From assembly GCA_021775625.1 (NCBI GenBank), contig JAJFHM010000346.1, forward strand, positions 1-39,273: a stretch of DNA of 39,273 nt, written 5' to 3'. The notes under the pieces are model-generated. The model made no database searches. It was not told the DNA's origin and saw nothing but the letters and a program-made list of their open reading frames with translations. The DNA comes from Hyphomicrobiales bacterium. GTDB taxonomy: Bacteria > Pseudomonadota > Alphaproteobacteria > Rhizobiales > JAJFHB01. Both the position numbers and the translations under genes were made by a program. Position 1 is the first letter of the stretch, and the number at the start of each line of letters is the position of its first letter. This document shows, in pieces, positions 22,482 through 32,719 of this stretch.

Positions 22482-23150
22482 TCAACGGCCAATCAAAAAG
22501 CTTCTGCACCCGGCAAGTGTGCGCCGTTGTTTGAAATCGATGACGTTGTCGGCCGGATTCTGAAGCGCATTGACGGCGCGCACATACAGCGGCAACGCGT
22601 GAGAATAGGCGTCATAGGGGCGCATCCGCGCCACCATCCAGTCAAGCTTGGCGCGGGCATCGGTGGCAGAATATTTGCCGGTTTGCACCCATTCATTCAC
22701 CAGCCAGTCCAATGACTCAAGGAACGACAGGGAGTCCGCGGCCTGCAGAATGTCCTCCTCTGGATTGCCTCCGATTTCGTGACGCAATATGAGGCTGCGG
22801 ACCTGGAGAATGAACGCCTCATCAGCCTTGTTGCCATCGCGAAGCCACTCCTCGACAACATCGGCGGAGCGCACCGAGTGGGCAAACAGGTAATCGGCAT
22901 CATCGAAACGATCCGGAGTACTGGTCGGACCCCCGGGGAAAAACCGTTCTGCGTCATGGACCAACGCGGCAAACTTCAATGCGTCCCCGGCTTTGCCCGA
23001 AATCTTCATCGCCCAGGCCCTGGTGCACAGCAGATGCTCAAGCTGATAAAACCCATCAAGCCAGTCAACTGCCGCCAACTCCAGGCTACTGAAAGTGGCA
23101 TCGGCGTAGCGGCCGGCAAGCTCGTCAGCCATAGTCGTATCGTCATCCAT
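22482..23150 (-). CDS. HD-domain (phosphohydrolase-like) protein
   Basis: 222 aa; YQLEHLLCTRAWAMKI...FAALVHDAERFFPGG...LILRHEIGG; overlaps the CoxS-CoxL stop by 8 bp. Confidence 0.65.
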   Translation of the reverse strand: MDDDTTMADELAGRYADATFSSLELAAVDWLDGFYQLEHLLCTRAWAMKISGKAGDALKFAALVHDAERFFPGGPTSTPDRFDDADYLFAHSVRSADVVEEWLRDGNKADEAFILQVRSLILRHEIGGNPEEDILQAADSLSFLESLDWLVNEWVQTGKYSATDARAKLDWMVARMRPYDAYSHALPLYVRAVNALQNPADNVIDFKQRRTLAGCRSFLIGR

Positions 23151-26061
23151 CTGGGCTGGCCGGCATCGTGGTTGTCAGATGTTTGCCGTGCAGTGCGCGC
23201 CAGACAGTTTCCGGTGTTATCGGCAGCTCAGAAATCTCGACGCCGAAATCGCTCAGCGCGTCGCAAATGGCATTTGCGACCGCAGCGGCCGGTGGGATCG
23301 TGCCCACTTCGCCAACGCCGCGCACTCCAAACGTGGTCGTTGGCGACGGCTCCTCGGTGTGCAACAGCTCAATGGGCGGAACATCGGCAGCCATCGGCGC
23401 GAAATAGTCCATCATCGTACCGTTTATCAATTGCCCGGTTTCCGGGTCGTATCGCAGCTCTTCGTTCAGTGCAGCGCCCAGTCCCTGCACGACAGCACCG
23501 CGCACCTGCCCTTCCACAAGCAGCGGATTAATCTGCGTGCCGCAATCATGCACCATGATGAACCGCTCAACCGAAAATTCCCCGCTCTCGGCATCGACCG
23601 AAACGACCGCGGCCGCCGTGCCGAATGAAAACGCGGCCTCCGCAGGCTCGAAACTGGCAGAGGCTTCCAGCCCCGGGCTATCGCCTGCCGGTATCCCCTG
23701 CCCCAGTATGGCGCCGCTGAACACTCTCGACAGTGGCACTTGCCGTTCATGGTCGGATATGTGCCGGACCACCCGGCCATCGACAACAATTTCTTCGACG
23801 GGCGCCTCCAGAATGGCCGCACCCAAACGCAATGTCTTTGAGAGAAACTCTTCGCCCGCCTGCTTGATCGCGCCAGAGGCGGCAATTATCGTGCGGGAAG
23901 CAAAGGCGCCTGTGTTGAGCGGCGACGCAGCCGTATCGCCGGCATGGACATGGATGCAGTCAAAATCCACACCGAGCACATCGGCGCAGACTTGCGCAAA
24001 GGCGGTTTCGCTGCTCTGGCCAAACGTTGAAACACCTGTGTAAAGATCAACTCCGCCCGTCCTGTTGGCCCGCAAGGTAACGCTCTCGTGGGCGCCATAT
24101 TGCGAGCCCCGATGCGCCAGAAAACGGGCACTGGCGTAGCCTGTGCGTTCCACAAATGAGGCTAAACCGATACCTGCAAATCGCCCGTCCGGCCGCTGTC
24201 GGTTCTCGTTCAATCGGTGCGCAGAATAATCCACCGCATCTGCAGCCATTTGCAGTGTTCTCAAGTAGTCACCGCTGTCATAAATCACACCACTTGGCGT
24301 GGTCCAGGGCAAATCCTCCGGCGCCAGCATATTCTGTTGCCGCAGCATCAGTGGGTCGGCGTTGAGTTTGCGTGCCAGGCGATCGATGAGCACTTCAAGC
24401 GCGAAATTCACTTCCGGCTGCCCATAGCCGCGATAGGCTCCGATAGGCGTTCTGTTCGTCAACGCAACACTGCGTTCGACCGAGCCGTCGGCAACCTTGT
24501 ATGGGCCGGCGAACACCACGCTCGATAATTGCGCGGAACCAAACGAGGAGTTCCAACCACCGAGGTCGGTAGTGTACTTGTTCTTCAGAGCGACGATCCG
24601 GCCGTCATTTCGGGCACCAATCGTATAGTGATGCACCGCTCCTCGTCCGTGGGTGCTGGCGCGAAAAAACTCCAATCCGTCTTCGATCCATTTTACCGGA
24701 CGACGGGTGGCCATGGCGTGCAGGCAGGCCAGCACATCCTCGGGATAAACCCCAAGCTTCATCCCAAAGGCACCACCAACATCACTTGCGCTGACGCGGA
24801 TGCTCCCTTCATCCAGGCGTAAAGATTCCGCCAACTGCTTGCGGACCAGATGCGGCACCTGGGTTGACGAATGGACCATCAGGTCGCGGGCACCGGGACG
24901 CCAGGTAGCGATCACACCGCGCGGTTCCATGGGCAAAGGGCTGACGCGATTAACCCGAAACTGACCCGAGACCACGAGATCCGCATCGCTCAGCTGTTTC
25001 TCGGGGTCGCCACCGCGAACCTCACTGCGCGACAGAAGATTGGACGCCAGGACATCAGAATGCATCACCGGGGCGGTGTCTTCCAATGCGTCGAGCGGAT
25101 CGGACACATGTGGCAGGGGTTCGTACTCGATTTCGAGCAATTCGATCGCATCCTCGGCAGCTGCCCGGCTGCTTGCAGCAATGCTGACAACCGGCTGCCC
25201 CTCATAAGTCGCCCTTTCCTGCGCCAACGCATAGTAGGACAGCTTGGGGGCTCCAGGCACCGGGCGCAACACCGTCAACGGATCGCTGAGGTCGCGAACC
25301 TCGGCTCCGGTCAGTATGTGCTTGACGCCGGCCACTACTGCGGCCTTGCTGATATCGATCGACTTAATTCGGACGTGCGGAAACGGACAACGCGCAACGG
25401 CCATTTCGAGTTGAAGGGAGAATTGCACGTCGTCGACAAACTGGCCGTCGCCGCACAAGAGCCGGTCGTCTTCCTTGCGCGGCGGGCTCTGGCCGATGTA
25501 GCGATCGACTTTGCATCCGTCTTGAGCCTCCCGTGGGGGCAAGGGAACATGCACCGTCGCACTGTCGGCGGCGGAACCCTCAATGTCATCAGGGCAGCCG
25601 AGATACTCTTCGACGGCTCGCAATATGCCTTCGTACCCGGTGCATCGGCACAGCACGCCGCTAATTTCTTCGCGAATTGTTTGCCGCGACGGCGGTGGTG
25701 TCCGATCAGCAAGGCTCAGCGCCAGCATCAAAAAGCCCGATGTGCAGAAGCCGCACTGCACCGCATGATGTTTTTTGAACAGGCTTTGCAACCTGCTCAG
25801 TTGGTCGCCTTCGGCAAGAGATTCCACCGTGCGGACCACTGCGCCATCCAACTGAGCGGCCAACATGATGCACGACTTTATCGCTTGCCCGTCCACTAAA
25901 ACGGTGCACATGCCGCACACGCCCTGCTCACAGCCAACGTGAACGCCGGTCATGCCCTGACGATGACGCAGAAAATCCGCGGCGTGCATGCGAACAGGTA
26001 CGGTATCCTCGATTTCCGAACCGTTCAGCGTGACCATGATTTCGATCCGATTAGCCGTCAC
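23143..26061 (-). CDS. Fused CoxS-CoxL molybdenum hydroxylase ([2Fe-2S] small subunit + Mo large subunit)
   Basis: 972 aa; GCEQGVCGMCTVLVDG and QCGFCTSGFLM, CRCTGYEGI (two 2Fe-2S sites), then large-subunit motifs DVGGAFGMK, AYRGYGQPEVNFALE, GVRGVGEVGTIPPAAAVANAI. Confidence 0.93.
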   Translation of the reverse strand: MTANRIEIMVTLNGSEIEDTVPVRMHAADFLRHRQGMTGVHVGCEQGVCGMCTVLVDGQAIKSCIMLAAQLDGAVVRTVESLAEGDQLSRLQSLFKKHHAVQCGFCTSGFLMLALSLADRTPPPSRQTIREEISGVLCRCTGYEGILRAVEEYLGCPDDIEGSAADSATVHVPLPPREAQDGCKVDRYIGQSPPRKEDDRLLCGDGQFVDDVQFSLQLEMAVARCPFPHVRIKSIDISKAAVVAGVKHILTGAEVRDLSDPLTVLRPVPGAPKLSYYALAQERATYEGQPVVSIAASSRAAAEDAIELLEIEYEPLPHVSDPLDALEDTAPVMHSDVLASNLLSRSEVRGGDPEKQLSDADLVVSGQFRVNRVSPLPMEPRGVIATWRPGARDLMVHSSTQVPHLVRKQLAESLRLDEGSIRVSASDVGGAFGMKLGVYPEDVLACLHAMATRRPVKWIEDGLEFFRASTHGRGAVHHYTIGARNDGRIVALKNKYTTDLGGWNSSFGSAQLSSVVFAGPYKVADGSVERSVALTNRTPIGAYRGYGQPEVNFALEVLIDRLARKLNADPLMLRQQNMLAPEDLPWTTPSGVIYDSGDYLRTLQMAADAVDYSAHRLNENRQRPDGRFAGIGLASFVERTGYASARFLAHRGSQYGAHESVTLRANRTGGVDLYTGVSTFGQSSETAFAQVCADVLGVDFDCIHVHAGDTAASPLNTGAFASRTIIAASGAIKQAGEEFLSKTLRLGAAILEAPVEEIVVDGRVVRHISDHERQVPLSRVFSGAILGQGIPAGDSPGLEASASFEPAEAAFSFGTAAAVVSVDAESGEFSVERFIMVHDCGTQINPLLVEGQVRGAVVQGLGAALNEELRYDPETGQLINGTMMDYFAPMAADVPPIELLHTEEPSPTTTFGVRGVGEVGTIPPAAAVANAICDALSDFGVEISELPITPETVWRALHGKHLTTTMPASPDG

Positions 26062-26131
26062 TGTCTCGCCTTATCGATTTCGAGCCGGACGACGATACGC
26101 CATCGATCCAGTCCCCCAGTCCGTTCACACT

Positions 26132-27157
26132 CTAAGAGGATGGCTGCATTTCCTTGACCACCACATCGCCGTCGATGACGATTGGCTCATCGTCGAGAAA
26201 AAGGCTGCAATCGCGCATTGGGATATCGAGGTGGCAGGCGGTGTCGTTGAGCCCGCCCAGCTCGTTGTTCGGACCGGTTGAGAACATCACATTCCCGTAA
26301 AAGGAACGCAGCTCCATCCCCATACCGCCGGGGAATTGCGTCAGTCCATGCCAATTGGCACGCTCGTCCAGCCCCCATCCAACATGCGACATGCCGTTGC
26401 CTCTGGGGTCTTTGAATGCGTCCATGTAGCTCTTGATCAGGTCGGCCTCGATCCCGCCGCGAATGTCTTGCACGAACCCTTTCTCGATCGTGTACGTCAC
26501 CGGCTCGCGCACATATGAGTTGAACGGCAAAAGCACATCGCCCATTCCGAGGACGATCTGCCCGTCAACACCATCATCGGCACCGCCGGTAAAGACGAAG
26601 CCTGCCGGCCAATGATCCCAGCGCCCCGGCTCATCCGTGTAGCCATATTCGCTAATGGTCGGATAGACGCCAAGTTTGTAAGTGATGTCGGTTCCGTGCG
26701 GGCTCGTAATCCGCATGTTTTTCGCCTTGGACAAAATTTCGGCACCCACCTCGACGCGTTCCCGGATCTCTTTTGACGGCATCAGCCTCGCCAATAGCGG
26801 CGCCGGTTCGACAGCGGTGAGAACACGCGCTCCGGCCGCCTGGATGGCCATTTGCTCAGGGCTGAACAAAAGGAATATGAGATCGACCACCATATCGGCC
26901 TGTTTGAGTGCCTCAACCGCTTCCGCGTTCTGGGCCAACTGCGAAATACCAACTTCCCAACTCCCCGATCCCGGCTGTGGTGTCGGCAGACGCATATGAT
27001 AAATCTTGGCGCCAAGTGTGCGGCCGGCATTCAAAAAGGCGTCGGCATAGTCCAGCCGCTCATCGCCCTGTGACAGCACGACGACACTCTCGCCTTCGTG
27101 AACTCCACTCATCTCGAGTTGAATTCGGCAAATTTCGTTGAGAGAATTTTGATCCAT
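26132..27157 (-). CDS. nicX: 2,5-dihydroxypyridine 5,6-dioxygenase-like ring-cleavage enzyme
   Basis: 341 aa; ISEYGYTDEPGRWDHWPAGFVFTG, VLGMGDVLLPFNSYVREPVTYTIEKGFVQDIRGG, MSHVGWGLDERANWHGL, FSTGPNNELGG, CHLDIPMRDCSLFLDDEPIV as recalled from NicX, with the H...H-x-D ligand set retained. Confidence 0.85.
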   Translation of the reverse strand: MDQNSLNEICRIQLEMSGVHEGESVVVLSQGDERLDYADAFLNAGRTLGAKIYHMRLPTPQPGSGSWEVGISQLAQNAEAVEALKQADMVVDLIFLLFSPEQMAIQAAGARVLTAVEPAPLLARLMPSKEIRERVEVGAEILSKAKNMRITSPHGTDITYKLGVYPTISEYGYTDEPGRWDHWPAGFVFTGGADDGVDGQIVLGMGDVLLPFNSYVREPVTYTIEKGFVQDIRGGIEADLIKSYMDAFKDPRGNGMSHVGWGLDERANWHGLTQFPGGMGMELRSFYGNVMFSTGPNNELGGLNDTACHLDIPMRDCSLFLDDEPIVIDGDVVVKEMQPSS

Positions 27158-27190
27158 GATGCATATCTCCTTTAACGCGTCCTTTGGGTT

Positions 27191-28015
27191 CTACGACTTG
27201 CGGACACCCGGTAGCAGCGGAGCCAGGACGTCGAAAAATCCTTCGAAATTGTCCCACGGCACCATATGGCCGGCGCCGGGTACCGACAGAATTGGAATTG
27301 CCGGATTGGCCGCCGCTAAATCCGCTGCAGCCTGGGCAGGAACGACAGGGCTGTCCGCGCCGCGCACAAGTGTCGCCGGGGGTGCGATCTGCGTCCAGTA
27401 TTCGAAAAAGTCCTCGGTCTGAAACCCCTCATGGGTTTCCACAACCGCCGTTTCATCACAGGTGGCCAAAATATCGGCGCGCAGTTGCAACTCGCGCTCC
27501 GGCCATTTGGGGTAAAAGCGCCGCACCTGCTCCACCGTGGTTCCCTGCTGGGCTTCATGCAACTGCGTCAGAAAGGCCTCGCGGTTCGTGGGGTAAGGTC
27601 CACGCCCGGGCCCTGAAACGGGCGGATCGACCAAAATCAGGTGGCCATGCCCGTGCAGCGCAAATCCGACCGCATAGGCGGCCGCGATCCGCGCACCAAG
27701 TGAATGGCCGATAATCGTGGGAGCCCCCAGTTCGAGCGCCGAAACAATCCCGTCGACGTCCGCGGCATAATCGGCGAGCCGGTAGTTTCCCGACGCAGCC
27801 ACGGTCGTCTTCCCCCTTCCCCGCAAATCTGGAACCACGACCCTGAAGCCCATGTCCGACAAGGCTACAGCGATGAAATCTGCCGTTGCCGCCGGGCTGG
27901 TGATCCCCGGCAAGATCAAAATGGTGCCCCGTCGAGCATCACCATATTCCAGAAGATGATGGCTCAGACCGTTGGCCTGGATGGTGTGGGAACGTCCCGA
28001 AACGGCTATGCTCAC
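27191..28015 (-). CDS. nicD: N-formylmaleamate deformylase-like alpha/beta hydrolase
   Basis: 274 aa; LPGITSPAATADFIA, PDLRGRGKT, GHSLGARIAAAYA, LVDPPVSGPGRGPYPTNRE, VPGAGHMVPWDNFEGFF resembling NicD; GTG start overlaps the upstream TGA. Confidence 0.8.
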   Translation of the reverse strand: MSIAVSGRSHTIQANGLSHHLLEYGDARRGTILILPGITSPAATADFIAVALSDMGFRVVVPDLRGRGKTTVAASGNYRLADYAADVDGIVSALELGAPTIIGHSLGARIAAAYAVGFALHGHGHLILVDPPVSGPGRGPYPTNREAFLTQLHEAQQGTTVEQVRRFYPKWPERELQLRADILATCDETAVVETHEGFQTEDFFEYWTQIAPPATLVRGADSPVVPAQAAADLAAANPAIPILSVPGAGHMVPWDNFEGFFDVLAPLLPGVRKS

Positions 28016-28191
28016 GCGACCGCCTCCGCTTGCACCGGCAATGAGCCAAGGGCTAACCCTGCATCAGCAACCTCCGGGGCATGAAAAGTTGCCTCCCGCA
28101 CATTCCGCTCGGAATGTCGGCGCATCAGCTCCGGGATCTCGGTTTCCATCGTCGTGTTTGAACTGGGTACGATCAATCCGATGCGGTGCAT
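28012..28191 (-). pseudogene. Truncated/fused maleate isomerase (NicE)-like ORF, 59 aa
   Basis: Hand translation: MHRIGLIVPSSNTTMETEIPELMRRHSERNVREATFHAPEVADAGLALGSLPVQAEAVA*; N-terminus is the NicE/Asp-Glu racemase-family RIGxIVPSSNTTMETEIP motif; SD agggagga upstream; stop overlaps nicD GTG (GTGA). Confidence 0.75.
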
Positions 28192-28225
28192 TCTGTAATC
28201 CTCCCTGTGCTGTCTCCATCCCGCT

Positions 28226-28879
28226 CTAGCCAGCCAACTGGAACAGGATCATGAGTGAAACCATCAGCGTCGCCGCACTCAAGGCGGCACACACCTTCGC
28301 CCAGAACTCGACAGCGGGCGCCGCCGTGCCGCGGGTTCCGACTGACAGTGTCTCGAGCGCATCTCGGCCGCGGCCGGGACGGGATGCTGCCCCCGTCGTC
28401 GGGCTCGCCACCGGGTGCAACTGTGTCTCACCGCCCAACAGCGCTTGTTCGAGATTTTCGGCGAATTCACCGGTCACCCGGTCCGCCTGCTTCGCGATGA
28501 CCTTTTGCCCGACACTGCCCAGGGCGCCCGCCAACGCGGCCTCGCCTTCAACGATGACATGTGTGATCCGATCGCCTGCCGGCTCAATCATTACTGTACT
28601 TGCCACCCGAAAATTTCCGATCGCGCCGCGCACCGCCTTGCCGGTCGAAGTGAACTGGATCCGCTCTTGATGGACTTTGTCGCTGATGTGCACCCTGGAT
28701 TCGAAGGTTGCGCTGAGCGGACCCAAATTCTGCCTCACACGAACCGATAAGGTATTGGCATCGACGATGGAGACACTTTCGATCCCGGGTATGCACTCGG
28801 CAACCAGGGCCGGTTGGTCGAAGAAAGTCCAAACCTTCGAAACGCTTTCGTTCACATCAAACTGTTGACGAAATTTCAC
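28226..28879 (-). CDS. CoxG-like SRPBCC protein with C-terminal membrane anchor
   Basis: 217 aa; MKFRQQFDVNESVSKVWTFFDQPALVAECIPGIESV; C-terminal hydrophobic VCAALSAATLMVSLMILFQLAG. Confidence 0.88.
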   Translation of the reverse strand: MKFRQQFDVNESVSKVWTFFDQPALVAECIPGIESVSIVDANTLSVRVRQNLGPLSATFESRVHISDKVHQERIQFTSTGKAVRGAIGNFRVASTVMIEPAGDRITHVIVEGEAALAGALGSVGQKVIAKQADRVTGEFAENLEQALLGGETQLHPVASPTTGAASRPGRGRDALETLSVGTRGTAAPAVEFWAKVCAALSAATLMVSLMILFQLAG

Positions 28880-29751
28880 GACGACACCTCGCTGGCGGCG
28901 GCTGCGCGTAGGTCTCTAAGAGTGCGCCTGAGATGCACCGTAACCAGATGCGTCCGGTACTGCTCGCTCGCCCGAATGTCGGTCTGCGGAGAAATCTCTG
29001 TGCCGGCGATTTCCGCAGCTTCGCCGATGTCCCCGTCGGTCAGATCCGAACCCTCCAGCCGCGCGGCTGCCTTGATGGCAAGAACCGGAGTTTCATCCAC
29101 ACCGCCCAACCCGATCCGAATATCTTGCCACTTACCCGAAGCCGATCGATTGCCGCAGACAGCAACCGACATGACCGCAAAATCATTGTGCCGTCGACAC
29201 ACCTCGTAAAAGGCGAAATGATCCGGATGCTTCGGAAAGGTGATTTGGGTGACCATTTCGCATGCGTCGATGGCAGGAAAGTAAGAGCCTTCATAAAAAT
29301 CCGGCATCGAAATTTCGCGCGCACCGTTTGCGCTGACAACCCGCACGCGGGCGCCCAACACCAACGCACCCAGCGGCATTTCGGCGGTTGGATCGCCCTG
29401 AGCGAGGCTTCCGCCAATGGTGCCTCGAGCGCGAACCTGGCGGTCGCCGACCCATCGCACCATCGCCGCAATCAGGGGCAGGCGGTGGGCAATGACCGGT
29501 GACGTCTCGATCGTATTGTAGCGCAACAGGGCGCCGAGGACCGTATCGTCGCCGTCGACATCAACACCATCGAGATTGGGAACGTGGTTGATATCCACCA
29601 GCGCCGGCGGCCGCCACAGGCGCATATTCATCATCGGCATCAGGCTTTGCCCACCAGCGAGGATGCGCGCGTCTCCGGAATAGTCGTCCAGCAACCGCAG
29701 GACCTCCTCCACCGACGCGGCCTTGTGATAGATGAAGTCCGCGCTCTTCAT
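28876..29751 (-). CDS. CoxM-like FAD-binding medium subunit of molybdenum hydroxylase
   Basis: MKSADFIYHKAASVEEVLRLLDDYSGDARILAGGQSLMPMMNMRLWRPPALVDI...TIGGSLAQGDPTAEMP; start at Met50 of the track ORF; ATGA overlaps with both neighbours. Confidence 0.93.
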   Translation of the reverse strand: MKSADFIYHKAASVEEVLRLLDDYSGDARILAGGQSLMPMMNMRLWRPPALVDINHVPNLDGVDVDGDDTVLGALLRYNTIETSPVIAHRLPLIAAMVRWVGDRQVRARGTIGGSLAQGDPTAEMPLGALVLGARVRVVSANGAREISMPDFYEGSYFPAIDACEMVTQITFPKHPDHFAFYEVCRRHNDFAVMSVAVCGNRSASGKWQDIRIGLGGVDETPVLAIKAAARLEGSDLTDGDIGEAAEIAGTEISPQTDIRASEQYRTHLVTVHLRRTLRDLRAAAASEVSS

Positions 29752-30845
29752 GACTTCGAAGCGTCGGAGTTGGAAGCGGCGACCTTGACGCCCGACAATC
29801 GCGACAAGACGTGATCGACAGGTGATTTTGTGGCCGCGATCGGCCGGCTGGGTGATTTGCGGCTCCAGACCGTTTCGGGCCGGACCTGCAACACCCAAAG
29901 GTCGTCATCCGTCCCGATCGCCCACTCGATGTCCTGCGGCGCGCCACGGTCGGCCTCGATCCGTTTGCCCAGCTTTGCCAGAAACTGGATGTTCTCGTCG
30001 CTTAGACAGACCATCTCCTGGCGGGACGGCTCAATTGGCGCCAACCCGACCGTACCGGCGTCTGGTTTGAAGCGATACTCTTCGGTTTGCGTCGCGACTT
30101 GCCGCTTCAAAACATCAAAGGTCACCTTGTCGATGACGAACAGGCTTGGCGTGATGTCGCCCTTGACAACCCCCTCACCTAAACCCCAACACGCTTCGAA
30201 AACGATCTTGGAGCGGTCGCCGGTGAGAGGATCGAGCGTGAACATGACCCCCGCTGAGCGGGCCTGAACCATTTGCTGGACGCCGACGCACATCGCAATA
30301 TCACCCTGCGTGATCACGGTGTCTCCATCCCGCTGGTACGACAGGACTGTCTCGCTAAACATACCCGCCCAGCACATCCGCATATGCTTGAGCACGTCAT
30401 CTGCTCCCGAAATCCATAAGTAAGTCTCGTATTGGCCAGCGAAGCTGGCGCCCGCGAGATCCTCGGATTCACCGCTTGACCGGACGGCAACCGGCACGTT
30501 GGCGCATGCTGTGCGAACCTCCAATTCCGCATAGCTCTTTCGCACTGTTGCTTCCAGGTCGAGCGGCAAGTCTGCGGTCATAATCGTTTCGGTCAGATGG
30601 GCCGTTTCGGCCTGAATGTCAGCCAGGGCCAGACCGGGGACCGCCTGCCGCACACGCCTGGCCTCACCGACAAGTCCCGCAGCGTCCAGAAAGTCCCGAT
30701 ATGCCACGGTGGTGATGCCAAATCCCGGCGGCACCGCATAACCGGCCGCCATCGAGGTGGCCAGGCTCGAGAACTTGCCGCCCAATAGCGGATCCCCCGG
30801 CGCCGCGGCGTCGTCAAGCCATACGATGCGCGAAGCCGCGGTCAT
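29748..30845 (-). CDS. PEP-synthase N-terminal (ATP-grasp) domain protein, phenylphosphate synthase beta-like
   Basis: 365 aa; LGGKFSSLATSMAAGYAVPPGFGITTVAYRDFL, VAVRSSGESEDLAGASFAGQYETYLWI, MFTLDPLTGDRSKIVFEACWGLGEGVVKGDITPSLFVID. Confidence 0.85.
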   Translation of the reverse strand: MTAASRIVWLDDAAAPGDPLLGGKFSSLATSMAAGYAVPPGFGITTVAYRDFLDAAGLVGEARRVRQAVPGLALADIQAETAHLTETIMTADLPLDLEATVRKSYAELEVRTACANVPVAVRSSGESEDLAGASFAGQYETYLWISGADDVLKHMRMCWAGMFSETVLSYQRDGDTVITQGDIAMCVGVQQMVQARSAGVMFTLDPLTGDRSKIVFEACWGLGEGVVKGDITPSLFVIDKVTFDVLKRQVATQTEEYRFKPDAGTVGLAPIEPSRQEMVCLSDENIQFLAKLGKRIEADRGAPQDIEWAIGTDDDLWVLQVRPETVWSRKSPSRPIAATKSPVDHVLSRLSGVKVAASNSDASKS

Positions 30846-32719
30846 TACCCCGACTTTTCAACTATGCGTACGAGCCCGACATTGCCGTCAACTTCGATAA
30901 TGTCGCCGGTCGAGATAAGTGTCGTGGCATACCCGGTTCCAACAACTGCGGGCAGGCCGTACTCGCGTGAGATAATGGCGGTATGGGCCATGATGCCTCC
31001 GACATCCGAGACGGCGGCAGAAATTTTCGGGAAGACGGGCGCCCAACTCGGCGCGGTGATGCGGCAAACCAGGATGTCGCCATCCTCGACTTCATAGAGC
31101 TGCTCGGTCGCGGTGATGACCTTTGCGCGGCCTTTGACCTTGCCGGCAGATGCCGCAACACCGCGCAACTGGTCGCTAGATGTCGTATCAACGCCAATCC
31201 ATTCATCGACCGTTTCCTGGGTGATGCCCCAAAGCATGATGGTGAGTGGTTCTGTAATCGTTTCGGGCGGCGTCCCAAGTGCCGGCGGCGGCGACCATTT
31301 CGCCAACACATCGCGAATGCCGCGCCGGCGTTCGATAATCGGGCGCCAGTAGATTTCGCCGCGCGATTGAGAGCCCGTCGCCCAGCCGATCAGCAGGTCA
31401 TAAAGCGCGTCGTAGATTTCATGACGATGCAGATAGAAAATATCTTCGCGATCGTCAAAGAAGTTGCGCGTGACGAATATGTCGCCCAATTCCCGAACCT
31501 TTGACCAGAAAATCGAATGGTGCCAGTGCTCCACATAAAAATTGTGGTCTTCGACAAAGGGGAACACCTTGCGGGTCAACGCGACCAGCCCGTCGAAGGC
31601 TTCGCGGTCCTCATCTGTTGGCAAGTGTTCGCGATACTCCGCGGTAACGCGTTCGCGCCGCGCGACGATCTTATCCAGCGGACGGCGCACGTCCTCACCG
31701 CGTTGCAACGCGGAGATGTAACCAGAAATCGCAGACAGCGGCAGCCGCAAATCGTCCATCCAGACCGGATCGGAATGCGTATATCCAGCTCCCGTTGAAT
31801 ACCAGAACCAGGGATCCTTCGCCGCTTCCAGGGCTTCCAGCCATTTTGGACCATTCTCGGCCTTGGCTATCGCGCCGAGAACGCTGTCAGGGGAATTTTG
31901 CCCCAAAATGACGTCGGCGACGTCCAGTTCGACGGCGAGCGCGGCCAGGCCACGCAACTCGTCGTCAGGCCTGAACAGCAAGATGTCGATACCCGACACC
32001 ATGTCCGTTATCGTCTGGTCGGTAATGCCAGGAAATGCGCTTTGGCAGAATTCGCGAAAAGTAAGATAGGCGCCGTAGCCCAGGTTGAGCATCTCGAAAT
32101 GGTAGGACCCCATCTCGAGCATATTCTCAATCATACGGCTGTATGAGGTCAAAAGATCGTAGGATGAATAAAGCCCCCGATGCGAGAAAACGTGCTTTTC
32201 GTGCTCGTATTCTGGCAACGGTTCGAATTCAATTGCCTTGAGCCGCTCGATGCAGTCCTTGGCTTTGTCTTTCCAGTTTTCGTAAATTTCGTCCCAATTT
32301 TCGAAATAGTGGCCGGCCCGAGACGCAAAGATCTCGCCTCGCTCGGCCAGTTTGTCAGGGTCCGTGACCGAATTGGGGCTGATATAGAGATAGCCGTTGA
32401 TGACACGGTGATCGATGCCCATCGCGGGCGGCACCGGCCAAACACGGTTCGACATCTGGCTGGCAGCAACCCACCAGTTCTCGGTCATTATGGTGTCGAA
32501 CGGATAGAGTGGCTCCGGATTGTGCATCCCGTCGAAAAACCAGAACTTCGATTCTTCCAGTTCCCGCCGTTCGGGGCTGATGTGCATGTAATAGGGATAA
32601 AGCTCCTGCCAGCCCGCGGCACCCTTCGGAGAGGCAATGTCGAATGGACTGGAGAAGCCGGATTTAGAGGTCGATGCTTTTGCATCGGGGGCCTTGCCGG
32701 AACTTTGATTATTGCCCAT
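30845..32719 (-). CDS. PEP-utilizing phosphohistidine-domain protein, phenylphosphate synthase alpha-like
   Basis: 624 aa; C-term DILVCRITAPSWAPVFPKISAAVSDVGGIMAHTAIISREYGLPAVVGTGYATTLISTGDIIEVDGNVGLVRIV with swivelling His; TAATG overlap with beta. Confidence 0.85.
   Translation of the reverse strand: MGNNQSSGKAPDAKASTSKSGFSSPFDIASPKGAAGWQELYPYYMHISPERRELEESKFWFFDGMHNPEPLYPFDTIMTENWWVAASQMSNRVWPVPPAMGIDHRVINGYLYISPNSVTDPDKLAERGEIFASRAGHYFENWDEIYENWKDKAKDCIERLKAIEFEPLPEYEHEKHVFSHRGLYSSYDLLTSYSRMIENMLEMGSYHFEMLNLGYGAYLTFREFCQSAFPGITDQTITDMVSGIDILLFRPDDELRGLAALAVELDVADVILGQNSPDSVLGAIAKAENGPKWLEALEAAKDPWFWYSTGAGYTHSDPVWMDDLRLPLSAISGYISALQRGEDVRRPLDKIVARRERVTAEYREHLPTDEDREAFDGLVALTRKVFPFVEDHNFYVEHWHHSIFWSKVRELGDIFVTRNFFDDREDIFYLHRHEIYDALYDLLIGWATGSQSRGEIYWRPIIERRRGIRDVLAKWSPPPALGTPPETITEPLTIMLWGITQETVDEWIGVDTTSSDQLRGVAASAGKVKGRAKVITATEQLYEVEDGDILVCRITAPSWAPVFPKISAAVSDVGGIMAHTAIISREYGLPAVVGTGYATTLISTGDIIEVDGNVGLVRIVEKSG

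Follow-up and report, generated by a model that had tools for sequence, protein, structure and literature searches.

A 59-residue nicE remnant ahead of nicD points to an in-frame internal deletion in an hpd-type pyridine operon of a Hyphomicrobiales bacterium

HpdA, a 3-hydroxypyridine dehydrogenase, is reportedly a molybdo-hydroxylase of four components, among them SRPBCC/CoxG as a separate subunit, and its cluster reportedly also encodes PEP-utilising and PPDK-like proteins, with 2,5-dihydroxypyridine cleavage as the next step. The cluster is reported from Ensifer adhaerens HP1 (Wang 2020, AEM), and PMC11962113 describes a role for CoxG in this system. The maleate isomerase NicE is represented in the PDB by 4fq5/4fq7 and 2xec/2xed, in which a middle section of ~196 residues, bearing both catalytic cysteines, is part of the complete ~250-aa Asp/Glu racemase fold with its two lobes.

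We analysed a contig of a Hyphomicrobiales metagenome-assembled genome (MAG; GenBank GCA_021775625.1, contig JAJFHM010000346.1) over its 39,273 nucleotides, hereafter the window. A set of genes on one strand follows, in order of transcription.

30845..32719, minus strand: PEP-utilising mobile-domain protein
29748..30845, minus strand: PPDK_N (ATP-grasp) protein
28876..29751, minus strand: FAD subunit (CoxM-like) of a molybdo-hydroxylase
28226..28879, minus strand: CoxG-like SRPBCC protein
28012..28191 (TGA stop included), minus strand: delta-nicE ORF, 59 aa, apparently an internally deleted nicE, from its translation and NicE similarity (the stub)
27191..28015, minus strand: nicD-like N-formylmaleamate deformylase with a GTG start (phmmer to the deformylase 4l0c, E 1.3e-46)
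26132..27157, minus strand: nicX-like 2,5-dihydroxypyridine 5,6-dioxygenase (phmmer to 7cn3, E 9.6e-94)
23143..26061, minus strand: fused 2Fe-2S/molybdopterin hydroxylase subunit
22482..23150, minus strand: HD-like protein, whose counterpart in actinobacterial clusters is placed between coxG and nicE or nicD

The genes for the PEP-utilising and PPDK-like proteins, together with those for the SRPBCC, FAD and Mo subunits, adjoin nicX-nicD, which is the hpd layout. This make-up corresponds to the one reported for the 3-hydroxypyridine (hpd) genes in Ensifer adhaerens HP1, a likeness of gene content that extends to the separate CoxG subunit and to the PEP-utilising and PPDK-like proteins ahead of ring cleavage. 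The operon therefore resembles an hpd cluster more than one for nicotinate, with a predicted hydroxylation of 3-hydroxypyridine to 2,5-dihydroxypyridine, and the nicotinate pathway implied when this DNA was first read from its letters alone is probably wrong. Among the window ORFs examined there is no isochorismatase-type nicF; the operon (22482-32719) does not carry one, and eight isochorismatase-family genes lie elsewhere in the MAG. The NicX-like dioxygenase (26132-27157) has no match in Pfam or NCBIfam, yet it is 71-83% identical to many relatives and matches 7cn3 clearly.

Relatives were collected by a dioxygenase search, which yielded 80 loci. In three Pseudonocardia loci (L046, L047, L048) and one from a Frankiales MAG (L056) the genes run pepA, ppdk, coxG, hd, nicE, nicD, nicX, xdh, and nicE, which is intact there (249-260 codons), directly precedes nicD, so that the comparison of orthologous loci proposed in the sequence-only reading does find an intact gene at the syntenic place. 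These hpd-type clusters share with the window the pepA-ppdk-coxM-coxG and nicD-nicX-xdh neighbours and the overlap of the nicE stop with the nicD start; they differ in that their nicE is intact and the HD gene lies ahead of it, whereas in the window the HD gene follows xdh. Six actinobacterial hpd-type clusters (L060, L062, L073, L082, L084 and L086) carry an intact nicE after xdh and not before nicD. Judged by these gene orders, nicE moves within the hpd-type operon, standing before nicD in some clusters and after xdh in others. An intact nicE is present in 10/10 related clusters with the PEP-utilising gene (pepA), the window being the exception. Two Rhizobiaceae loci (L044, L045) hold nicE-nicD-nicX within a nicotinate-type set, ordered in L045 as FAD monooxygenase, isochorismatase (nicF-like), nicE, nicD and nicX; the L045 protein, which is intact, is matched along its entire length by the maleate cis-trans isomerase 4fq7 (E 2.7e-65) and serves below as the reference for numbering.

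The features at the place where these relatives carry nicE are the following.

28199..28206, minus strand: Shine-Dalgarno-like AGGGAGGA, 7 nt ahead of the delta-nicE ATG
28078..28191, minus strand: NicE N-terminal part, residues 1-38, ending ...ATFHA (phmmer to 2xed/4fq5; HMM of syntenic NicE)
28077..28078, minus strand: deletion junction by alignment; residues 39-234 of L045 NicE, ~196 codons, have no counterpart here
28015..28077, minus strand: C-terminal part of NicE, stub residues 39-59, PEVADAGLALGSLPVQAEAVA (aligned without gaps to the C-termini of L045/L044 NicE)

The ORF, read from 28191 to 28012 on the minus strand, translates as MHRIGLIVPSSNTTMETEIPELMRRHSERNVREATFHAPEVADAGLALGSLPVQAEAVA, and its TGA stop overlaps the GTG start of nicD (GTGA). 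Translation, coordinates, the Shine-Dalgarno AGGGAGGA and the overlap are all as first reported for this stretch. Because the 59 residues have no match in Pfam or NCBIfam, the similarity to NicE rests on phmmer and on HMMs built from syntenic genes. Residues 2-38 match the maleate isomerase structure 2xed (E 3.9e-6) and the maleate cis-trans isomerase 4fq5 (E 8.7e-5); against NicE HMMs built from related loci the head scores 47-54 bits, with 53.6 bits over positions 2-40 of the syntenic model, and the N-terminal NicE motif IVPSSNTTMETEIP is present. By this significant similarity residues 1-38 are a maleate isomerase N-terminus, as had been proposed for the first ~38 residues. A chance ORF with a fortuitously NicE-like start, which its shortness and the lack of Pfam and NCBIfam matches might suggest, is refuted by the bit scores of the head, by a tail that also belongs to NicE and by the position of the ORF where nicE stands in relatives.

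The 21-residue tail had been called unrelated-looking, a description that the comparison with NicE C-termini contradicts. In a gapless alignment the tail pairs with the final 19 residues of L045 and L044, the most similar intact NicE proteins (PEVADAGLALGSLPVQAEA vs PSVPGAGAALGNIPLRKAA). Since a MAFFT multiple alignment misplaced it, we used pairwise and C-terminally anchored tests, in which the observed score is reached by 1 of 20000 shuffles and by 9 of the 4153 C-termini taken from real ORFs of all loci, all 9 of them NicE. Scored by HMMs alone, the tail does not stand out from shuffles, because NicE C-termini vary: the general model gives it -0.6 bits and the clade model 3.4 bits, a score that a few shuffles equal, mostly at other positions of the model. 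On the anchored alignments, residues 39-59 are the NicE C-terminus.

Both ends of nicE are thus present in one ORF, colinear and without the middle, which entails an in-frame internal loss: compared with intact L045 NicE, residues 39-234 are missing, ~196 codons or ~590 nt. The idea of an internal deletion that preserved the Shine-Dalgarno, the frame and the stop/start coupling is therefore supported, and strengthened by the tail also being NicE. What the stub shares with the NicE of the PDB structures is the N-terminal 38 and C-terminal ~20 residues, the place before nicD and the Shine-Dalgarno; what it lacks is the middle ~196 residues. Catalytic cysteines 77 and 196 (L045 numbering) fall within the missing stretch, the two cysteine motifs (ACLVA and SACVQMP) are absent, and 59 residues without a Pfam match fall short of the two-lobe fold. 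With both cysteines and most of the fold missing, the product is presumably not an enzyme, and the stub looks like a nicE pseudogene, an internal deletion remnant of ordinary gene decay. Over 26 codons comparable with Actibacterium there are 11 synonymous and 4 non-synonymous differences, and in GC3 both head and tail resemble the neighbouring genes. Codons, GC3 and invariant residues give no sign of decay, which is consistent with a recent deletion; selection predicts the same, and a single sequence cannot discriminate between the two.

A second in-frame internally deleted NicE occurs in Pseudonocardia acidicola (G391:C123:36572-36817, minus strand; L152/L157), where 91 residues join model residues 1-42 to ~199-243 (62 bits, clade model). 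Its left breakpoint and that of the stub lie no more than ~4 residues apart; it differs in its greater length (91 vs 59 aa), its longer C-terminal part and its genomic place, near molybdo-hydroxylase genes. The same genome has three intact NicE-like genes. The deletion is an independent event, which shows that such deletions occur; two cases are too few for a pattern.

Could the junction be a product of assembly or of a mixed population, with an intact nicE in the organism and a chimeric or minority junction in the contig? The evidence is a single contig from a MAG of 376 contigs that is 61.6% complete, and a near relative illustrates the hazard. Actibacterium naphthalenivorans (dioxygenase identity 82%) has two nicE copies, one in an hpd cluster, whose contig runs coxG then nicE, and one in a nicX-isochorismatase-nicE set (L140/L155 and L141/L156, on contigs C29 and C15 of G388). 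Both contigs end inside nicE, and the 95 bp at their ends (the nicE 5' end with its Shine-Dalgarno) are identical; it is this shared 5' end that broke the assembly, so assemblies are prone to fail at nicE. However, repeat-driven misassembly requires a shared word at the junction, and no direct repeat is found there within 500 bp, making a simple error of assembly less likely; relatives share at most a few bases at both breakpoints, repeats usually break contigs and seldom yield a precise in-frame deletion, and the bin holds no further fragment of the window nicE. We consider an artefact of this kind unlikely. The two copies in the sister cluster also mean that one would be dispensable, and redundancy is a plausible cause of the loss by analogy. 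In the incomplete MAG itself, no other NicE exceeds 29% identity; other racemase-fold ORFs reach 20-29% and lack NicE motifs. Two ORFs with 27-29% identity to NicE have paired cysteines, set in another motif, and, as candidates, could in principle act on maleate.

The sequence-only reading had further suggested that the stub perhaps now serves as a leader peptide for nicD, a possible but doubtful role. The overlap of intact nicE with nicD in L056 is GTGAGC, identical to that of the window, which argues that the coupling goes back to the operon with its nicE intact and did not arise as a leader. The overlap is of the TGATG type in L046-L048; a single base separates stop from start in L044 and L045, where the counterpart of the window Shine-Dalgarno AGGGAGGA is AAAGGAGG. 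RNA folding around the stub is ordinary compared with shuffles (z 0.47), scans found no promoter, Rfam match or terminator above chance at the stub, and the sole terminator-like match lies inside nicD, at chance level. In addition, nicD seems to have an SD-like GGAGG of its own inside the stub tail.

A putative role as translational lead-in is possible in principle, the stub being kept by selection to load ribosomes onto nicD once the enzyme had become redundant. The intact Shine-Dalgarno, frame, invariant N-terminal residues and GTGA overlap would fit such a role, but all of them are inherited from intact nicE, an in-frame outcome has a chance of 1 in 3, and the locus has neither unusual RNA structure nor promoter or terminator signals. 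Nor is a short ORF conserved across several of the genomes searched, as expected of a leader: relatives carry full nicE. No second case of the stub or its nicD turned up in family, class, Rhizobiaceae-type or Rhodobacterales-type genomes (one of these empty searches, run without a positive control, carries little weight), so that selection is not measurable, and one IMG/VR pattern scan gave no match. Selective retention of this kind strikes us as highly improbable. Still less probable is the bolder version in which one in-frame deletion turned an enzyme into a coupling peptide selected to load ribosomes onto nicD, a route that the Pseudonocardia acidicola breakpoint would hint is repeated.

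We favour instead, with a probability of about three in four, a single in-frame deletion that removed the ~590-nt interior of nicE from an hpd-type operon, left a non-enzymatic stub and was passively non-polar. The ancestral nicE would have stood directly 5' of nicD, overlapping it translationally in an hpd-type pyridine operon, and one deletion would have reduced it to 59 codons. With Shine-Dalgarno, frame and GTGA overlap preserved, ribosomes that initiate at the stub should still reach nicD, and the deletion is probably non-polar for nicD and nicX. Such non-polarity would be a passive consequence rather than the work of an evolved leader, a role that is not needed to explain the observations. 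Maleate isomerisation would presumably be supplied by another gene (none was found in the incomplete MAG) or have been lost in the lineage.

Although of modest broader importance, the locus offers a tidy case of a catabolic operon that has lost one enzyme in frame, probably without polar effects. For this hpd-type cluster, annotation with a maleate isomerase of its own is unwarranted and, if the genome truly has no other NicE, the pathway would be predicted to end at maleate.
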